A DNA stretch of 39,554 bases from the NCBI GenBank assembly GCA_025963735.1, contig JAOQAF010000131.1, positions 1 to 39,554 of the forward strand, in the 5' to 3' direction. The DNA comes from Bacteroidota bacterium. GTDB lineage: Bacteria > Bacteroidota > Bacteroidia > B-17B0 > Aurantibacillaceae. Numbering within the stretch: position 1 is the first letter of the stretch; every line of letters begins with the position of its first letter. The notes below the pieces were generated by a model that was given only the letters and a program-made list of their open reading frames with translations, was not told where the DNA came from and ran no database searches. Position numbers and translations under genes: made by a program. Below are positions 14,765 through 22,303 of the stretch, one piece after another.

Positions 14765-15640
14765 ATGGAATTATTATGCCCGAAAAACTGGACCGATTAC
14801 GAACTGTTGGATTGCGGTGAATTTGAGAAGATGGAGCGGTTTGGAAAATATATTACCATAAGGCCCGAACCGCAAGCAGTGTGGCCAAAGATATATTCTT
14901 CCACGGATTGGGAAAAAGAAGCCCATGTTAAGTTTGTTCCAAAGTCGAGTTCAAGCGGCGACTGGAAAAAATTAAAGCAGATGCCTGAACAATGGGACAT
15001 TAATTATAAACTTGGTGACAAAAATTTAGTGTTCAGGTTAGGGCTTACATCATTTAAACATGTGGGTGTTTTTCCGGAGCAAGCAGTTAACTGGGATAAA
15101 ATATATTCTTTTTTAAACTCAAAAAATAACGTTAAATTTTTAAATCTGTTCGCCTATACCGGTGGGGCAAGTTTAGCTGCCAGGGCTGCGGGGGCTGATG
15201 TAACGCATGTGGATAGTATCAAGCAGGTTGTTACATGGGCCAATGAAAATATGCAGAAAAGTAATCTCGACAACATACGATGGATGATTGACGATGCACT
15301 TAAATTTGTAAAAAAGGAAGTGCGACGCGGAAATTTATATGATGGAATTATTTTAGACCCGCCTGCTTTTGGACATGGACCGAATGGCGAAAAATGGCAA
15401 CTGGAAGATAATATTTCAGAAATGATTCAAAGTGTGCTGCAGATACTAAATCCCAAACAACATTTGCTAATTCTGAATGCATACTCGCTTGGCTTTTCGG
15501 CACTCGTACCTGAAAATCTTTTAAAACCCTTTGCCACAAAAAACAAAAGTGAACTAAAAGTTGGGGAATTGTTTTTACCTGCTAAAAGCGGAATTAAGCT
15601 TCCACTCGGTGTTTGGGGAAGCCTGAACAAATCAGTTTAA
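14765..15640 (+). CDS. Class I SAM-dependent methyltransferase, RlmI/RlmK-like
   Basis: This 291-residue Rossmann-fold methyltransferase belongs to the rRNA cytosine-C5-type group. Motif I is in FLNLFAYTGGASLAARAAG, and the motif II acidic residue is in THVDSIKQVV. DDALKFVKKEVRRG and the catalytic-loop motif ILDPPAFGHGP follow. The N-terminal 90 residues are a small beta domain rather than a PUA domain, as in the shorter family members. 23S rRNA is the likely but unproven substrate. The stop TAA shares three of its four bases (TTAA, 15637-15640) with the stop of the convergent gene. Confidence 0.88.
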   Translation: MELLCPKNWTDYELLDCGEFEKMERFGKYITIRPEPQAVWPKIYSSTDWEKEAHVKFVPKSSSSGDWKKLKQMPEQWDINYKLGDKNLVFRLGLTSFKHVGVFPEQAVNWDKIYSFLNSKNNVKFLNLFAYTGGASLAARAAGADVTHVDSIKQVVTWANENMQKSNLDNIRWMIDDALKFVKKEVRRGNLYDGIILDPPAFGHGPNGEKWQLEDNISEMIQSVLQILNPKQHLLILNAYSLGFSALVPENLLKPFATKNKSELKVGELFLPAKSGIKLPLGVWGSLNKSV

Positions 15641-16860
15641 GGTCTGTATTCTAATTTAAATTCAGATAAAAGTTTTGTATTGGGCTGAATGTAAAAATTA
15701 AATTTAGATAAAGATTTAAGAACCTTACTTACCTTGTTTTTTTCCTTTGTGGTAAGATCATAAGCATTAAGAAATTTTACATTTACAACCTGCTTTTTTT
15801 CGTCGACATTTAAAACAACATCAAACTTTTTATTAACCTGTTCCGCTAAAAGTTTTTCGCGAACATCTTTTATCAAATCGGTTTCACCACCAACATAATA
15901 ACAGGAATTAGCAGGCGAATTGTATTTTTCTGTTTTTTCAAGTTCAGGGGAAGATGGGGCAGATTTATTATCGGAAGAAACCATTGGAATATTGTTGGCT
16001 GTCCCAGCTTCAGTATGAGCGCTTTTAAATACGGGCTGGCTACCCCCTGTATTATGGCTGGCTAATTTGTTTTCGTCTTTTAAATTATCATCATACGGAT
16101 TTTCTTTGCGTTTTTCTTTTCCATCTTTAACAGCGGATTTTTTTGTTACTTCTTTATCGTATGCTTTTGATTCACTTACCTGGTCAGCAACAGGTTCTTT
16201 TGCGTTTACCGATTCGTCGTTAATGTGACCTTCGGAATTTTTGGTGCTAATATTAACATTATCCAAATTCGCATCCTTCAACCCTTGTTGATTTACTTCG
16301 GTAACAGGTTTAAAATCCTTATCATCTCTTTTATCAAAGGCTATACTGTTTTCATTTGTGCGTTTCGGATTTTGAGCTGGCATTATAACAGAGCGTGGAG
16401 AAAGCACGGCGCGTTTTTTTCCGGGGCTGTTATCCTCTTCGGTATTTTGTTGCCTGCTTTTTGGTTGTTCTGCGGCGGCAACCGGGGTAGGCTTTTCGGT
16501 GGGCACGCTGATTTCCTTTTCCTCTTCCAGATTTTTTATTTCCCGGGCAGGAACCAGCGCTACGTCTTTTTGATTAATGGATTGATTATTTAAAATAAAA
16601 TAAATGCTTAGTCCAATTACTAAAAATAATCCTGCAGCCGCAAACCAATATACTTTTGGGTTGTTTTTTTTATCTGTAAAGACTTCTTCACTTATTCGTT
16701 TGTCGAGTGTGCCTTTCAATGACATGGCTTCTTCTTCAGAATGAAGCAATGCAAACCCTTCTAATGCCTCACGATCAAAGTCGTCAAGGTCAGCAGACTT
16801 TTTTGTCATGTTTTGTTTCAGAAGTTCTTCTAAATTTTTATTATGTAGCCGGTCGTTCAT
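15637..16860 (-). CDS. Probable membrane anti-sigma factor with TonB_C-like end
   Basis: This 407-residue protein overlaps the sigma-factor gene by 20 bases, a layout typical of sigma/anti-sigma pairs. The cytosolic part (1-70) is acidic and helical and has no zinc-binding HxxxCxxC motif. One TM lies at about 71-90 (YWFAAAGLFLVIGLSIYFIL). A long low-complexity Lys/Glu/Asn/Pro region fills about 95-315 and looks like a periplasmic tether. The last 89 residues start CYYVGGETDLIKDV and continue FDVVLNVDEKKQVVNVKF. That pattern resembles a divergent TonB C-terminal domain, whose Bacteroidota form often begins with GGE. The anti-sigma role is inferred from position and topology; the TonB resemblance is a reading by eye. 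Confidence 0.65.
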   Translation of the reverse strand: MNDRLHNKNLEELLKQNMTKKSADLDDFDREALEGFALLHSEEEAMSLKGTLDKRISEEVFTDKKNNPKVYWFAAAGLFLVIGLSIYFILNNQSINQKDVALVPAREIKNLEEEKEISVPTEKPTPVAAAEQPKSRQQNTEEDNSPGKKRAVLSPRSVIMPAQNPKRTNENSIAFDKRDDKDFKPVTEVNQQGLKDANLDNVNISTKNSEGHINDESVNAKEPVADQVSESKAYDKEVTKKSAVKDGKEKRKENPYDDNLKDENKLASHNTGGSQPVFKSAHTEAGTANNIPMVSSDNKSAPSSPELEKTEKYNSPANSCYYVGGETDLIKDVREKLLAEQVNKKFDVVLNVDEKKQVVNVKFLNAYDLTTKEKNKVSKVLKSLSKFNFYIQPNTKLLSEFKLEYRP

Positions 16861-17428
16861 TAACTAATGCTTCCATTTTTAATTTTAAATTGCGTTTACC
16901 GTTTTGAATATGACTTTTTACTTCATTGTTCGAGTAGCCGGTAAGCTCAATTATTTCGTTGTATGATTTATTTTTCAAGTAAAACAGTTCAATGCATTTT
17001 TTTTGTTCCAGGTTGAGCGCTTCCAAAGCCTTTTCCATGAGCGTTATCTGGTTTTCTTTCTCTTGAAGATGCTCGGGAGTCGAAAAATCCATAATTAAAT
17101 GCACATTATCTTTTAATTCAAGCTCTTTTTTTAACGTGCTTTGGCGTTTACGCAGTTCCATCAGGCAAAAATTCTTACTATACACATAAAGCCAGCTTTT
17201 AAAAAACTGAATTTTGTGCCGGGTAAGATCCTTAAGCAGTGAGGTGAAAATCTGAATAACGGCATCCTGGGCTTCATCTTTGTTTTTTAAATACTTAATA
17301 CATAAACCTAAAACAAGGTGGCCATACCGCTCATATAACAAGCCTACAAAAGAGTTGTCACCCGTTTGTAAAAATGTGTTAATCAGTTCAGTGTCTGTAT
17401 AATCCTTGTATTTTGAATTAACGAGCAA
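16841..17428 (-). CDS. ECF-type RNA polymerase sigma factor
   Basis: This 195-residue protein has sigma region 2 at about 25-95 (LLYERYGHLVLGLCIKYLKN, DEAQDAVIQIFTSLL, WLYVYSKNFCLMELRKR). Region 4 is at about 130-185 (LNLEQKKCIELFYLKNKSYN and GYSNNEVKSHIQNGKRNLK). Region 3 is absent, as in group 4 sigma factors. It should direct RNA polymerase to a small set of promoters, often including its own. The only upstream in-frame start codon is TTG at 17428; no ATG occurs before residue 131, inside region 2-4, so a rare start seems real. It is the first gene of a pair with the overlapping membrane protein and diverges from the YfiR-like operon. Confidence 0.9.
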   Translation of the reverse strand: MLVNSKYKDYTDTELINTFLQTGDNSFVGLLYERYGHLVLGLCIKYLKNKDEAQDAVIQIFTSLLKDLTRHKIQFFKSWLYVYSKNFCLMELRKRQSTLKKELELKDNVHLIMDFSTPEHLQEKENQITLMEKALEALNLEQKKCIELFYLKNKSYNEIIELTGYSNNEVKSHIQNGKRNLKLKMEALVNERPAT

Positions 17429-17487
17429 TTCGCGGTATTTTAGTGCTAATTTACCAAAAACTATAATAGCTATTTAAAAGCAAATAC

Positions 17488-17495
17488 TATATTTG
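17488..17495 (+). promoter_or_regulatory. Bacteroidota -7 element TATATTTG upstream of the YfiR-like gene
   Basis: TATATTTG matches the TAnnTTTG consensus exactly and lies in the 119-base divergent region between the sigma-factor gene and the YfiR-like gene. It predicts transcription starting near 17500, just before AAGGAAAA (17503-17510). No -33 TTG is seen at 19-21 bases, so another sigma factor or an activator may be involved. Confidence 0.4.
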
Positions 17496-17547
17496 TAAAC
17501 TAAGGAAAATTATTCTGTTTAAGGGATATAAATATCTGTTACTCTTT

Positions 17548-18042
17548 TTGTGCTTGGTATCGTTAAGATTTCAGCAACCCTCTAACTTTGATGCAAATGC
17601 CAAGATCAAAGCTGTATTTCTGTACAACTTTACACGTTATTTTGAATGGCCCGATAAGAAAAAAAACGGCAATTTTATCGTGTATATTGTTGGTAAAAAC
17701 GATAACCTTATCACTGAGCTTAAAAATCTCGCTTCCAAGAAAAAAGTTGGGGTACAGGATATAGAAGTGAAAAGCACACTTACTTTTGATCCATCAGTAA
17801 ATCCTCAGATCATATATTTATTACCGGATGTTTCTTCAGCGGTAAAAGATGTTGCTTCCAAAAATAAAAGTAAAGGAACACTAGTTGTAGCTGAAAATAA
17901 CGGGGCCTGCAAATCGGGCTCAAGCATTAATTTTCTTGTAATTGAAAACAAATTGAAATTCGAATACAGTAAAAATAACGCGGTTAAAGCAGGATTAAAA
18001 ACCAATGATGATTTTAAAGCTCTTGCTATAAATGTAGATTAA
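17548..18042 (+). CDS. YfiR-like (DUF4154) periplasmic protein
   Basis: The sequence after the signal region, FDANAKIKAVFLYNFTRYFE, is the hallmark start of the YfiR/DUF4154 family, and the length is normal. YfiR of Pseudomonas is a periplasmic repressor that holds the HAMP-GGDEF receptor YfiN inactive. The only conventional start is TTG at 17548, but it cuts into the signal peptide. The frame is open back to 17470, and a start at ATT 17509/17512 or CTG 17515 would give a proper signal peptide (FKGYKYLLLFLCLVSLRFQ). AAGGAAAA sits just upstream of those codons. It is the first gene of an operon with a helical repeat protein and a HAMP-SpoIIE phosphatase, which fits a partner role for the receptor. 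Confidence 0.82.
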   Translation: MCLVSLRFQQPSNFDANAKIKAVFLYNFTRYFEWPDKKKNGNFIVYIVGKNDNLITELKNLASKKKVGVQDIEVKSTLTFDPSVNPQIIYLLPDVSSAVKDVASKNKSKGTLVVAENNGACKSGSSINFLVIENKLKFEYSKNNAVKAGLKTNDDFKALAINVD

Positions 18043-18053
18043 AAAAAATAACG

Positions 18054-18956
18054 ATGAACGGATTGCGCTATATATTTAAAAACTTCATCCTTGTGCTTTT
18101 ATTAAGCACGGGAATGAATGGTTTTGCGCAGATTGACAGGCTAAACAGGGCCCAGCATTTATTGCAGGCAAAAACTCCTGAGCTGGCTCAACCTGCCATT
18201 GACAGCGTTATACATCATCCTGAAACAAAAGATGATTTTGTTAGCTGGACCACCCGGGCCTATATTTATTTTGAGATCTATAAAAAAACAGATAAACAAA
18301 AACTGAACTCTGCCTTAAGAGATACAATAATTTCTTCGGTTAAAAAATCAAACGCGTTAAAGCCGGATGCCGATTACAAAAACAATAACAATAAACTTCT
18401 TGTAAGCTTATCAACGCATTATTACAACATTGCTAAAACCTTATTACAGGATTCCATTAATGATACAAGGAGCGCCCAGGCTTACAATAAATGCAAAGAA
18501 CTTTACCTGATCGTGAAGCCGGATACAAATTTTATTGCGCGTGATATTGAATATTATGTGGCGGTGGGAAGCGTTTATTCCAACATTTTTAATAACGACA
18601 ATAAAAACACAAAAGCGCACGACATTGCAAAAGTGGCGCACCTGAAGGTGTTTGATCTTCAGCCGGATAATATACCTGCCAACATGAACATGGGTTTAAT
18701 GTATTTAAATCAGGGAATCAATCTTGTGAAATCATTGGATTATGGCGCAGATATAAGCCAAATTGACGCCATTCAGGAAAACATTGTAAAACTTGCCAAA
18801 CAATCTGAACAGTTTATTTTAAAGGTTTATAAAAAAGACAATAAGAACCCAAAAGCGGTGCAGGCCCTGTATTATATTTACAGGCTTTTGAACGATTCAG
18901 CCAAACAAGAAGAATTTAAAAATAAATCAAAGGAGTTAAACATTAAACTTGATTAA
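18054..18956 (+). CDS. Exported TPR-like helical repeat protein
   Basis: This 300-residue protein has a signal peptide (about 1-26, ending NGFAQ) followed by continuous helical segments with TPR-like spacing. Examples are AQHLLQAKTPELAQPAIDSV, YNIAKTLLQD and AHLKVFDLQPDNIPANMNMG. This would give a periplasmic protein-interaction scaffold. It begins 11 bases after the YfiR-like gene and ends three bases before the HAMP-SpoIIE gene, so the three are almost certainly one transcript. It may link the YfiR-like protein to the receptor or the envelope. No enzymatic motif is visible. Confidence 0.75.
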   Translation: MNGLRYIFKNFILVLLLSTGMNGFAQIDRLNRAQHLLQAKTPELAQPAIDSVIHHPETKDDFVSWTTRAYIYFEIYKKTDKQKLNSALRDTIISSVKKSNALKPDADYKNNNNKLLVSLSTHYYNIAKTLLQDSINDTRSAQAYNKCKELYLIVKPDTNFIARDIEYYVAVGSVYSNIFNNDNKNTKAHDIAKVAHLKVFDLQPDNIPANMNMGLMYLNQGINLVKSLDYGADISQIDAIQENIVKLAKQSEQFILKVYKKDNKNPKAVQALYYIYRLLNDSAKQEEFKNKSKELNIKLD

Positions 18957-18959
18957 CCC

Positions 18960-20741
18960 ATGCGATTTCATTTTACAATAGGCAGAAGAATCGGTTTAGG
19001 TTTTGGAATTTTTATTCTATTAACTTCCATTGCTTTTATTTTAACCGTTGTAACGGTAAAGGATAGTAAAAAGCGTACCGAAACCGTGGTGGGTCAGGTA
19101 ACACCAAGTGTTGCTGAATTAAAGGAACTTAACCTTTTGCTGCAACGCACGCATACCGATATTTCAAAATGGTTTTATAACAAAAGTTTTAACGACGTTG
19201 AATTCAGAAACGAATTAAAAACCATTATAGCTGTTGAATATCCAAAGCAAAAAAAATCATTGGTTAAACTGTCCCTTAACTGGAATCCGGAAGAAAAGGA
19301 ACAGCTGCGTATAATTTTTGGTCGGATTGAAACATTGTTTAAAGTTTATCAGAACGAAATAATAAATCAGCTTAATTCAACGGAGGCATACGAAGACGCT
19401 AACATATTAATGATGGCCAGACTCCCGTATGAAGATTCGGAGGTAAGTATCAAAACCATTTATAAAAATCTGAATAATTTAATTGCCGCTAAACAATCTT
19501 CCGCAGCTACAGAACAGGAAGAAATGTTTAAAAAATTCAGCTTCCTTAACTGGTTTGTTGAATTGTTAGGTGTTGCGCTTTTAATCGGTGGATTTTCGAT
19601 TGCCCTGTTCACCACGCGTTCTATTACAAAGCCTATTCAAAAACTTAAAAAAATGTTGCTGTCGATGGGTTTGGGAATTTTGCCCAAAGAACGCATCCGG
19701 GCTACCAATGACGAAATTGGTGAAATGGGAACAGCCCTGAATGAACTGATCCAGTCGATGCATCAAACAACTGATTTTGCAAAGGAAACAGGTTCGGGTA
19801 ATTTTAACGCTACGTATACCCCGCTTAGTAAAGATGACAGTCTTGGGCATGCATTAATAAAAATGCGTGATGACCTTGCCGAAAATGAACGTTTTCTTGA
19901 ACGTAAAGTAATTGAGCGTACTGAAGAAGTTGTAAGGCAAAAAGAAGAAATTGAAAATAAAAATGAGGAGCTTGAAATACTTTATAAGCAGGTTACAGAC
20001 AGCATTCATTACGCGAAGAGGATCCAGGAAGCCATCCTTCCGCCCAATCATTTTATTAATCAGGTATTACCAAATTCATTTGTGTTGTATAAACCAAAAG
20101 ATATTGTAAGCGGCGATTTTTACTGGATTGAGAAAAAGAACGACCTTGTTTATTTTGCGGCTGTAGATTGTACGGGCCACGGTGTTCCGGGCGCATTCAT
20201 GAGTTTGGTGGGACATAATATTTTAAAAGACATTATAAATAACACCAGCATTGTTAAGCCTTCAGAAATCATGGATAAGTTGCGTGAAGGTGTTGTAAAT
20301 ACCCTTCATGCCGATAAGGCAGGAAAAGAAACCAAAGACGGCATGGATATGACCCTGTGTTGTATTAACTACAAGACGCTTGAGTTGCAGTTTGCCGCGG
20401 CATTCAATCCTTTATATATTGTTCGTAACGGTTCGCTGGTTGAGTATAAAGCGAACAAATTTCCTATAGGCGCCTTTATTGGCGAGAAAGCTAATTTTGA
20501 CAACAACAGCATTCAGCTTCAGAAAGGTGATCAGATATTTATATTCAGTGACGGTTATGCCGATCAGTTTGGCGGACCGAGAGGTAAAAAGTTCATGGTA
20601 GGTAATTTCCGGAAACTTTTAACTGAAATTTCTCTTCTTCCACCCTCTGAACAAAAGCAAAAGCTGGATATAACTCTTGCAAACTGGCAGGGCGATCAGG
20701 AGCAGGTTGATGATGTCCTGGTGATAGGGGTTCAGTTCTAA
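18960..20741 (+). CDS. HAMP-domain receptor with SpoIIE-type PP2C phosphatase output
   Basis: This 593-residue protein has TM1 at about 11-33 and a helical periplasmic sensor at about 35-195, of the four-helix-bundle kind seen in chemoreceptors. TM2 is at about 197-219, HAMP at about 220-275 and a coiled coil at about 305-345. The SpoIIE/PP2C serine phosphatase domain occupies about 345-593. Metal-binding aspartates are visible in SGDFYW (D386), AVDCTGHGVPGAFMS (D403), FSDGYADQ and the terminal QVDDVLVIG (D584/D585), so it should be active. DSIHYAKRIQEAILPP joins coiled coil to phosphatase, as in many Bacteroidota proteins. SpoIIE-type enzymes usually dephosphorylate STAS anti-anti-sigma proteins, but none is encoded here. 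Co-transcription with the YfiR-like gene suggests that protein controls the sensor. Confidence 0.9.
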   Translation: MRFHFTIGRRIGLGFGIFILLTSIAFILTVVTVKDSKKRTETVVGQVTPSVAELKELNLLLQRTHTDISKWFYNKSFNDVEFRNELKTIIAVEYPKQKKSLVKLSLNWNPEEKEQLRIIFGRIETLFKVYQNEIINQLNSTEAYEDANILMMARLPYEDSEVSIKTIYKNLNNLIAAKQSSAATEQEEMFKKFSFLNWFVELLGVALLIGGFSIALFTTRSITKPIQKLKKMLLSMGLGILPKERIRATNDEIGEMGTALNELIQSMHQTTDFAKETGSGNFNATYTPLSKDDSLGHALIKMRDDLAENERFLERKVIERTEEVVRQKEEIENKNEELEILYKQVTDSIHYAKRIQEAILPPNHFINQVLPNSFVLYKPKDIVSGDFYWIEKKNDLVYFAAVDCTGHGVPGAFMSLVGHNILKDIINNTSIVKPSEIMDKLREGVVNTLHADKAGKETKDGMDMTLCCINYKTLELQFAAAFNPLYIVRNGSLVEYKANKFPIGAFIGEKANFDNNSIQLQKGDQIFIFSDGYADQFGGPRGKKFMVGNFRKLLTEISLLPPSEQKQKLDITLANWQGDQEQVDDVLVIGVQF

Positions 20742-20776: not shown

Positions 20777-22303
20777 ATGATGCGATTTATTTTTTATATC
20801 TTATTTTTTCTTCAGCCTTATTTGTTGTTTCAGCAAAACACTGATTATTTTAAAGTGTATAACTCACTGATAGGTAATTCCGCTATTAGCATTACAACTC
20901 TTACTGCAAAAACATACAGCTTTAATCTGCCATTATATAAAATAGTTACCGATACGGTTTCAGGAAATTTATATATAAGCACAAGACAAAAGGATGCAGG
21001 TGATAGATTCTATACCAATAAAGGTTATCATCTTATTTTAAACAAAAATGATTCCGCTTGTTGTGTTCTGGAGGAAAGTAAACTTGACCTTACGCTCGCG
21101 GCAGATTATCTGCTTCTTTCAAGCGACACGAAGTCGGCAAGAATAAACAGAAAGTTTGGATACGAGCAGTTTGAATATCCTTCCAAAATACTTTATCCTA
21201 TTCTTAAAAATAACTCGGGCCTTACTTATAACCCCACTACAAAAGTAAACGGACAGGTAAGTTTAAGTTGCATTTCTCTCAATGACGGATCAGTCTTATG
21301 GTCGGCGCCGGTAAACAAAGAACATGACTGGAACGACATTGTTTTTTTAAATGACAGTGTTTTGTTGCTTGCGGCCGGTGGATTACACGCCATAAATATC
21401 CAAAGGGGCCTGGCATGGTCATATTCTTTAACTACGCATCAGAGAAATTCGAAGCCATATATTTATTCGTTACTTAACCCTATCACAGCGCAAAAATATT
21501 TTTCACAGCCTTACACTTCGGATGAAGAAGGAAGGGTAAATCAATTAGCCTCGAATATTTTAATAACCGACAGTTTAATTTATTTTGCCTCCGCAAACAA
21601 ATTAATTGCGCTTAATAAAACAGGGAAACTCATTTGGGAAAAGAACATGTCGGGATATCCTATGTCAAAATGTGTGTTGCAGCAACATAACAATAAGCTT
21701 CTTTTAATTAATCTGGGAGTTGCGCGTTACAATGAGAACTTGGTGGTGTATGGAAACCCTTTTGTTTGTGCCTTTAACAAATTTTCAGGGGATGTTATAA
21801 TGGAGGTGAAGAATGAATTAAAAAATCTTTTAGATATTACTGACTCACAAGGTTCGAAACTACTTGCCGATAAAAATTTAATAATTGAAGTAACAAGGGA
21901 TGCGCAGGTAAAAACCCGGATTGATTTAACGGAAGAGAAATTCGGGAACTTTCTGGAATTTATTAATGGCAATACTTATTTTGTGGAGAAAGAAGGTTTT
22001 TATGTGCCTTTAAATTTTATAAACGATAATGTTATTTACTTTAAAACAGATCATGGAAAGGTTTTTGGAATGAGTAATAATAATGTAGAATACGAGTATC
22101 ATTTCACCGAACTCTATCAACTCAACAAAAAAATTGACGGTAAAACATTAATTTCACAAAAAAATAAGTCTTTGCTTTTAAGCAGTAATTATGAGCCTCT
22201 GCAGATATTTAACACCGGAGAAAAGGCGTTGTTTCATAATAACAAAATATACTTTCCGGAAGGAAGACTTCTTTACATTATGAATGTAAATGAGCTGAAG
22301 TAA
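20777..22303 (+). CDS. Secreted PQQ-like beta-propeller protein
   Basis: This 508-residue protein has a signal peptide (about 1-19) and repeated four-strand blades of PQQ/outer-membrane-assembly type. Examples are LNDGSVLWSAPVNKEHDW, LHAINIQRGLAWSYSL and LIALNKTGKLIWEKNMSG. No catalytic motif was recognised. It follows the SpoIIE gene by 35 bases on the same strand, so it may be the last gene of that operon. Such propellers usually bind proteins or carbohydrates in the periplasm. An exact role cannot be read from the sequence. Confidence 0.7.
   Translation: MMRFIFYILFFLQPYLLFQQNTDYFKVYNSLIGNSAISITTLTAKTYSFNLPLYKIVTDTVSGNLYISTRQKDAGDRFYTNKGYHLILNKNDSACCVLEESKLDLTLAADYLLLSSDTKSARINRKFGYEQFEYPSKILYPILKNNSGLTYNPTTKVNGQVSLSCISLNDGSVLWSAPVNKEHDWNDIVFLNDSVLLLAAGGLHAINIQRGLAWSYSLTTHQRNSKPYIYSLLNPITAQKYFSQPYTSDEEGRVNQLASNILITDSLIYFASANKLIALNKTGKLIWEKNMSGYPMSKCVLQQHNNKLLLINLGVARYNENLVVYGNPFVCAFNKFSGDVIMEVKNELKNLLDITDSQGSKLLADKNLIIEVTRDAQVKTRIDLTEEKFGNFLEFINGNTYFVEKEGFYVPLNFINDNVIYFKTDHGKVFGMSNNNVEYEYHFTELYQLNKKIDGKTLISQKNKSLLLSSNYEPLQIFNTGEKALFHNNKIYFPEGRLLYIMNVNELK

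Follow-up and report, generated by a model that had tools for sequence, protein, structure and literature searches.

The stretch of DNA analysed here (the window) comprises 39,554 nucleotides, positions 1 to 39,554 of contig JAOQAF010000131.1 from a member of the Bacteroidota (Aurantibacillaceae; assembly GCA_025963735.1). It carries three plus-strand genes that form one tight unit: a yfiR-like gene, a gene for an exported TPR-like protein, and a gene for a receptor with two transmembrane (TM) segments, a HAMP domain and a C-terminal PP2C/SpoIIE phosphatase domain (Table 1). The intergenic gaps are 11 and 3 bases, which confirms the arrangement given in an earlier, sequence-based description of this DNA (the original prediction).

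The first protein matches Pfam family DUF4154 with 86.9 bits (curated cut-off 24.9) and has a hydrophobic N-terminus which, read by eye, points to an export signal. A single-sequence search of solved structures gave no match and a profile was required, with which the protein matches the solved YfiR of Pseudomonas (6.8e-7). In Pseudomonas YfiR, residues F162, E163 and I169 are tied to YfiN binding and Cys145-Cys152 forms a disulfide (PMC3375315, PMC4655355). The profile alignment has F162, E163 and G173 kept, I169 replaced by Ala, and the cysteine pair not kept; the kept residues fit a retained partner-binding face, which is short of proof of contact. The gene likely starts at a conserved CTG codon, a choice that follows from the codon pattern, as yfiR has no ATG start in this genus, CTG recurs at this codon in 18 of the 26 anchored loci of the genus (from the range L034-L065), with other codons in a few loci, and there is no ATG, GTG or TTG between the upstream TAnnTTTG promoter element and the signal peptide's hydrophobic core. 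This element occurs at a nearly equal distance in all anchored same-genus loci except one. Position 17470, from which the gene had been counted, is merely the opening of the reading frame and not the real start, because the promoter element lies downstream of it and would fall inside the gene so defined.

For the second protein the Pfam match to TPR stays below threshold. Its AlphaFold2 (AF2) model consists of helices throughout, and the nearest folds in the PDB are TPR proteins, with low TM-scores, so that the description as a TPR-like protein is upheld by the fold and by these matches. In the receptor, hydropathy places the two TM segments at about residues 15-33 and 199-217, and in the model residues 1-240 form helices only, without strands, so that the PAS domain of YfiN is absent. 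The acidic residues D386, D403, D531, D584 and D585 of the PP2C domain are invariant in 60 relatives, and the phosphatase therefore looks active. Together with the hydropathy and Pfam results, this bears out the predicted two-TM HAMP receptor with an apparently active PP2C domain.

Table 1. Features of the yfiR-TPR-receptor region (positions in the window; residue numbers refer to the receptor; pLDDT, predicted local distance difference test)
Feature	Position	Strand	Remarks
TAnnTTTG, Bacteroidota -7-type promoter element upstream of yfiR	17488..17495	+	TATATTTG
yfiR-like gene (DUF4154), predicted to be exported	17515..18042	+	inferred CTG start 17515-17517; PF13689 1.7e-24
Exported TPR-like helical-repeat protein, 300 amino acids	18054..18956	+	AF2 pLDDT 92; co-conserved with yfiR and receptor
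Receptor phosphatase, 593 amino acids	18960..20741	+	HAMP and SpoIIE by Pfam; AF2 pLDDT 84.6
Predicted periplasmic sensor, helical bundle, residues 34-198	19059..19553	+	between TM1 and TM2; weak 4HB_MCP_1 match
HAMP domain, residues 217-268	19608..19763	+	PF00672 5.1e-7
PP2C/SpoIIE domain, SiaA-like, residues 397-592	20148..20735	+	PF07228 9.6e-20; SiaA-PP2C best solved match
Exported beta-propeller-like gene, downstream	20777..22303	+	weak PQQ_2 match

Among the relatives searched, the order yfiR-TPR-receptor is intact in all 33 same-genus loci with a close ortholog (L034-L066), and the same triplet occurs in several further families of the class, a large group of environmental bacteria. A second search, for which the sensor-HAMP segment of the receptor alone served as the query, yielded 80 named loci, including records from Flavobacteriales, Cytophagales and Vicingaceae. 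In every one of the 74 loci with enough upstream sequence the TPR gene and yfiR were present in order, while the other 6 end at contig edges. Conserved adjacency in relatives, which had been proposed as a check and the absence of which was to refute the original prediction, was thus looked for and found, and the arrangement is not a product of chance. The closeness of the genes, and the fact that with about 35 SpoIIE domains in the genome some neighbour of this kind would not be rare, speak for accidental proximity without any functional link, but that explanation is refuted by the conserved triplets of both searches, by fused proteins and by the other yfiR of this genome, which is likewise accompanied by a receptor of this type (see below), and we give it practically no weight.

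A census of YfiR elsewhere in the class shows the same association. DUF4154 is present in 79 of 197 Bacteroidia genomes, and 80 YfiR loci were sampled, mostly best-scoring matches, so that the proportions are rough. Forty contain the triplet, seven contain YfiR-phosphatase fusions and one has a TonB-dependent receptor together with a receptor phosphatase of the same kind, which ties 48 of the 80 to such a phosphatase. Among the remainder, 14 lie beside kinase-like genes, one is a YfiR-kinase fusion, a TonB-dependent receptor is the only such neighbour in six, and 11 are unclear. We found 21 fusion proteins in 18 genomes, in which a TM helix connects one or two YfiR domains to the phosphatase; these are direct evidence that YfiR on the outside and PP2C on the inside can act in one signalling path. 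The second yfiR of the genome under study (contig C166) has as neighbours a gene for a TonB-dependent receptor and one for a divergent HAMP-SpoIIE receptor whose sensor is related, and in two further loci (L073, L091) a related sensor bears a histidine kinase output. The input of YfiR and a helical-bundle sensor is thus kept while outputs change.

Other outputs and hybrid forms were also seen. One locus (L285:5872-9830) has tandem genes for a YfiR-PP2C fusion and then a YfiR-adenylate/guanylate cyclase fusion (Guanylate_cyc 4.2e-55), and in another (L296:5872-9090) YfiR and a PAS-GAF histidine kinase form a single protein. In two species (L058:5576-7348, L062:4894-6705) the linker and the start of the PP2C domain of the receptor resemble those of YfiR-PP2C fusions such as L074, which suggests that output domains have been exchanged between the triplet and fusion types of system.

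These data also bear on another possibility, namely that YfiR and the TPR protein serve a different envelope process, such as outer-membrane assembly or transport, and share expression with the receptor without any direct control over it. In its favour, many other YfiR genes adjoin TonB-dependent receptors rather than TPR proteins, but there are single proteins that combine YfiR with PP2C, kinase or cyclase outputs, and the gene order was kept in every untruncated locus of the receptor-only search. We therefore regard mere co-expression as very unlikely.

On the output side, the cytoplasmic part of the receptor falls with SiaA in NCBIfam, at 206 bits where the equivalog cut-off is 700. The closest solved structure by sequence is SiaA-PP2C (4.1e-27), followed at a distance by RssB (1.4e-4), and no RsbU or SpoIIE structure was found under E 0.01 in this search; SiaA-PP2C is also the closest solved fold (2.2e-18, TM-score 0.91 over the target). 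The output thus looks SiaA-like and not RsbU-like. The genome encodes SiaB (168 bits; cut-off 85) with SiaC at two places and one further SiaB, and the better SiaC contains the sequence EYFNTSSSK, which aligns with LLYLNTSSIK, the peptide around the T68 phosphosite of Pseudomonas SiaC (PMC7647112). In relatives, siaB and siaC lie beside the operon itself, upstream of yfiR on the same strand in L101, L103 and L105 (the siaC frame is short in L101) and downstream of the receptor in L122, L145 and L149, with gaps of at most about 200 bases in these six loci where start codons could be placed. A siaC gene also follows a YfiR-phosphatase fusion after about 10 bases (L082). The adjacencies come in at least two different arrangements, and, given that SiaC genes number only a few per 4 Mb, we estimate that well under one case would be expected by chance in the sample. 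A variant of the kinase occurs on contig C204 of the genome (L304:5932-7430), where two SiaB-type kinase domains in one protein of 383 amino acids precede siaC.

If the input is the same but the substrate another, the phosphatase under YfiR and TPR control would act on an RsbV-like STAS protein and so free a sigma factor or other partner, as in the general stress response. The original prediction had pointed to STAS or histidine protein kinase partners. For a STAS substrate one can cite the three STAS matches, the stressosome-like cluster and the RsbW-like ATPases in the genome, as well as the finding that coiled-coil linkers couple varied sensors to this class of phosphatase (PMC12143880). 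However, the genome contains no STAS_2 match, by which an RsbV/STAS_2 substrate was rejected, and the STAS matches either lie in the stressosome-like cluster or, in the sole stand-alone case, have Asn (by eye) at the usual phosphoserine position. Also, the PP2C domain matches SiaA, and it is siaBC and not rsbVW that is found beside the operons of relatives. A STAS-type substrate is thus unlikely, and SiaB/SiaC are the better candidates. The stand-alone STAS protein adjoins a cellulose-synthase-like glycosyltransferase (contig C40, L211:282-2603). The stressosome-like cluster (contig C74, L213:5088-8258) comprises a receiver protein, RsbR-like and RsbS-like STAS proteins, an RsbT-like ATPase and an ATPase-phosphatase protein.

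We favour a process, which we consider probable, where an envelope signal operon uses YfiR and the TPR protein to control a receptor whose PP2C domain acts on a SiaC-type protein. YfiR and the TPR protein would act in the periplasm on the inner-membrane receptor, possibly with direct contact between YfiR and the sensor; the helical-bundle sensor, the HAMP domain and a coiled coil would relay the state to the cytoplasmic PP2C domain, which would strip phosphate from the SiaC-type phosphoprotein, counter to a SiaB-type kinase. The state of SiaC would then switch its targets, which are probably proteins that bind SiaC through a coiled coil rather than a cyclic di-GMP (c-di-GMP) synthase. A signal from outside the inner membrane would in this way probably set an intracellular phosphorylation switch instead of making c-di-GMP.

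Several observations weigh against this interpretation. SiaA is likewise the best match, with a similar score, of a TPR-PP2C paralogue that this genome encodes, and the genome of 3.5 Mb has about 35 SpoIIE domains that pass the cut-off. The SiaA match is therefore not specific to this receptor, and the paralogue, as a control, weakens SiaA-likeness as proof of one particular pathway. These phosphatases share just two SiaC proteins, and in this genome siaBC is located on other contigs, not beside the operon in the window. In favour of the interpretation, SiaC is present in all 50 triplet genomes vs 65 of 147 other Bacteroidia genomes, a contrast that is inflated by shared ancestry. In an analysis of YfiR-receptor covariation across 127 operons, the top pair was YfiR F168 with receptor R83, which is periplasmic, and among the top 0.1% the enrichment of periplasmic over cytoplasmic positions was 2.6-fold. 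However, the second and third ranks are held by T277, which is cytoplasmic, and the covariation was for that reason not used as evidence.

The end point of the Pseudomonas pathway is unlikely to apply here, as the whole genome has no GGDEF match, and the diguanylate cyclase SiaD was thus not encountered. A possible effector comes from the operons in which siaB and siaC follow the receptor. There, the product of a sixth gene after siaB-siaC (L122:8828-9343, L145:8856-9344, L149:8857-9399) is a small coiled-coil protein whose C-terminal half is hydrophobic, and the three proteins share the motif K-V-S-D-[RK]-L-Q. Pseudomonas SiaD binds SiaC via stalk residues that include R80, I81, S82, D83, R84, Y85 and Q86 (PMC8457831), and two of the three sixth-gene proteins align weakly to the stalk region of SiaD in NCBIfam (E 0.003-0.005). 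The sixth-gene protein may thus be a SiaC target that lacks GGDEF, which we treat as a lead only. For the protein from these Cytophagales-type operons no homolog was detected among solved structures, nor in the genome under study, where the search was made without a positive control. The wider proposal, that a YfiR and TPR input leading through a SiaA-like phosphatase to SiaB/SiaC is widespread in Bacteroidota and operates without c-di-GMP, and that in some lineages SiaC acts on the membrane-anchored sixth-gene protein through its SiaC-binding stalk motif, is put forward tentatively and is somewhat more doubtful than the pathway in this operon.

The operon is reminiscent of two systems of P. 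aeruginosa. As in YfiBNR, a two-TM HAMP receptor is encoded together with a periplasmic YfiR (DUF4154). The operon differs in that the sensor is a helical bundle and that of YfiN is a PAS domain, that the output is PP2C/SpoIIE and not GGDEF, that the third partner is TPR-like whereas YfiB is an OmpA/Pal-type outer-membrane lipoprotein, and that the cysteine pairs of Pseudomonas YfiR are not kept. The link between YfiR and the phosphatase is strongly supported by adjacency and fusions, but the transfer of YfiR/YfiN logic to this locus is supported only in part, given the different sensor and third partner; repression and activation cannot be told apart from sequence. With SiaABCD it shares the two-TM HAMP-PP2C receptor with a SiaA-type phosphatase (PMC7647112, PMC8457831), a genomic SiaB kinase and a SiaC with a T68-type site, and siaBC beside the operon in some relatives, while the input consists of YfiR and the TPR protein, siaBC lies outside the window and no GGDEF protein (SiaD) was found in the genome. 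Partner-switching phosphatases of the RsbU/RsbP type likewise have PP2C driven via an upstream helical linker, with exchangeable sensors (PMC12143880), but the best match here is SiaA, there is no clear RsbV-type substrate and the input is periplasmic. A 2025 study (PMC12143880) argued that sensors can be shared among phosphatases, cyclases and kinases by means of coiled-coil linkers, and the operon fits such sharing.

Output swapping as such had been published in 2012: Malone et al. presented the YfiR-YfiN pair as a modular system whose outputs include GGDEF-EAL, HPT, histidine kinase and MCP (PMC3375315). A phosphatase output, a TPR partner or a SiaBC link for YfiR, and likewise YfiR together with SpoIIE, were not found in the limited open-access literature searched; one paper there names DUF4154, and two name both YfiR and SiaA, one of these a review of c-di-GMP. 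The finding itself is real, widely conserved and better supported than originally proposed, but the label of YfiN logic with an RsbU-like output should be revised to a SiaA-like phosphatase under the control of YfiR and a TPR protein.

Bacteroidota genomes like this one contain dozens of SpoIIE/PP2C phosphatases, the inputs and substrates of which are mostly unassigned. Through the operon, the fusions and the siaBC-linked versions, one conserved phosphatase gains a named input (YfiR and the TPR protein) and a candidate substrate (SiaC), which opens the pathway to tests with purified proteins. Nor is the YfiR module bound to c-di-GMP, as within one bacterial class it is paired with phosphatases, kinases and an adenylate cyclase. 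If true, the pathway joins two modules known separately from c-di-GMP control in Pseudomonas and has them work without c-di-GMP.

The downstream beta-propeller-like gene adjoins the receptor in many, though not all, same-genus loci, with lower identity, and is possibly a fourth operon member within the genus only. On the other side, a divergent gene pair (15637-17428) for an extracytoplasmic function (ECF) sigma factor and a putative membrane anti-sigma factor has a common upstream region with yfiR. This pair is kept across most of the genus, and a sigma factor gene is found upstream in L067 and L069 as well.

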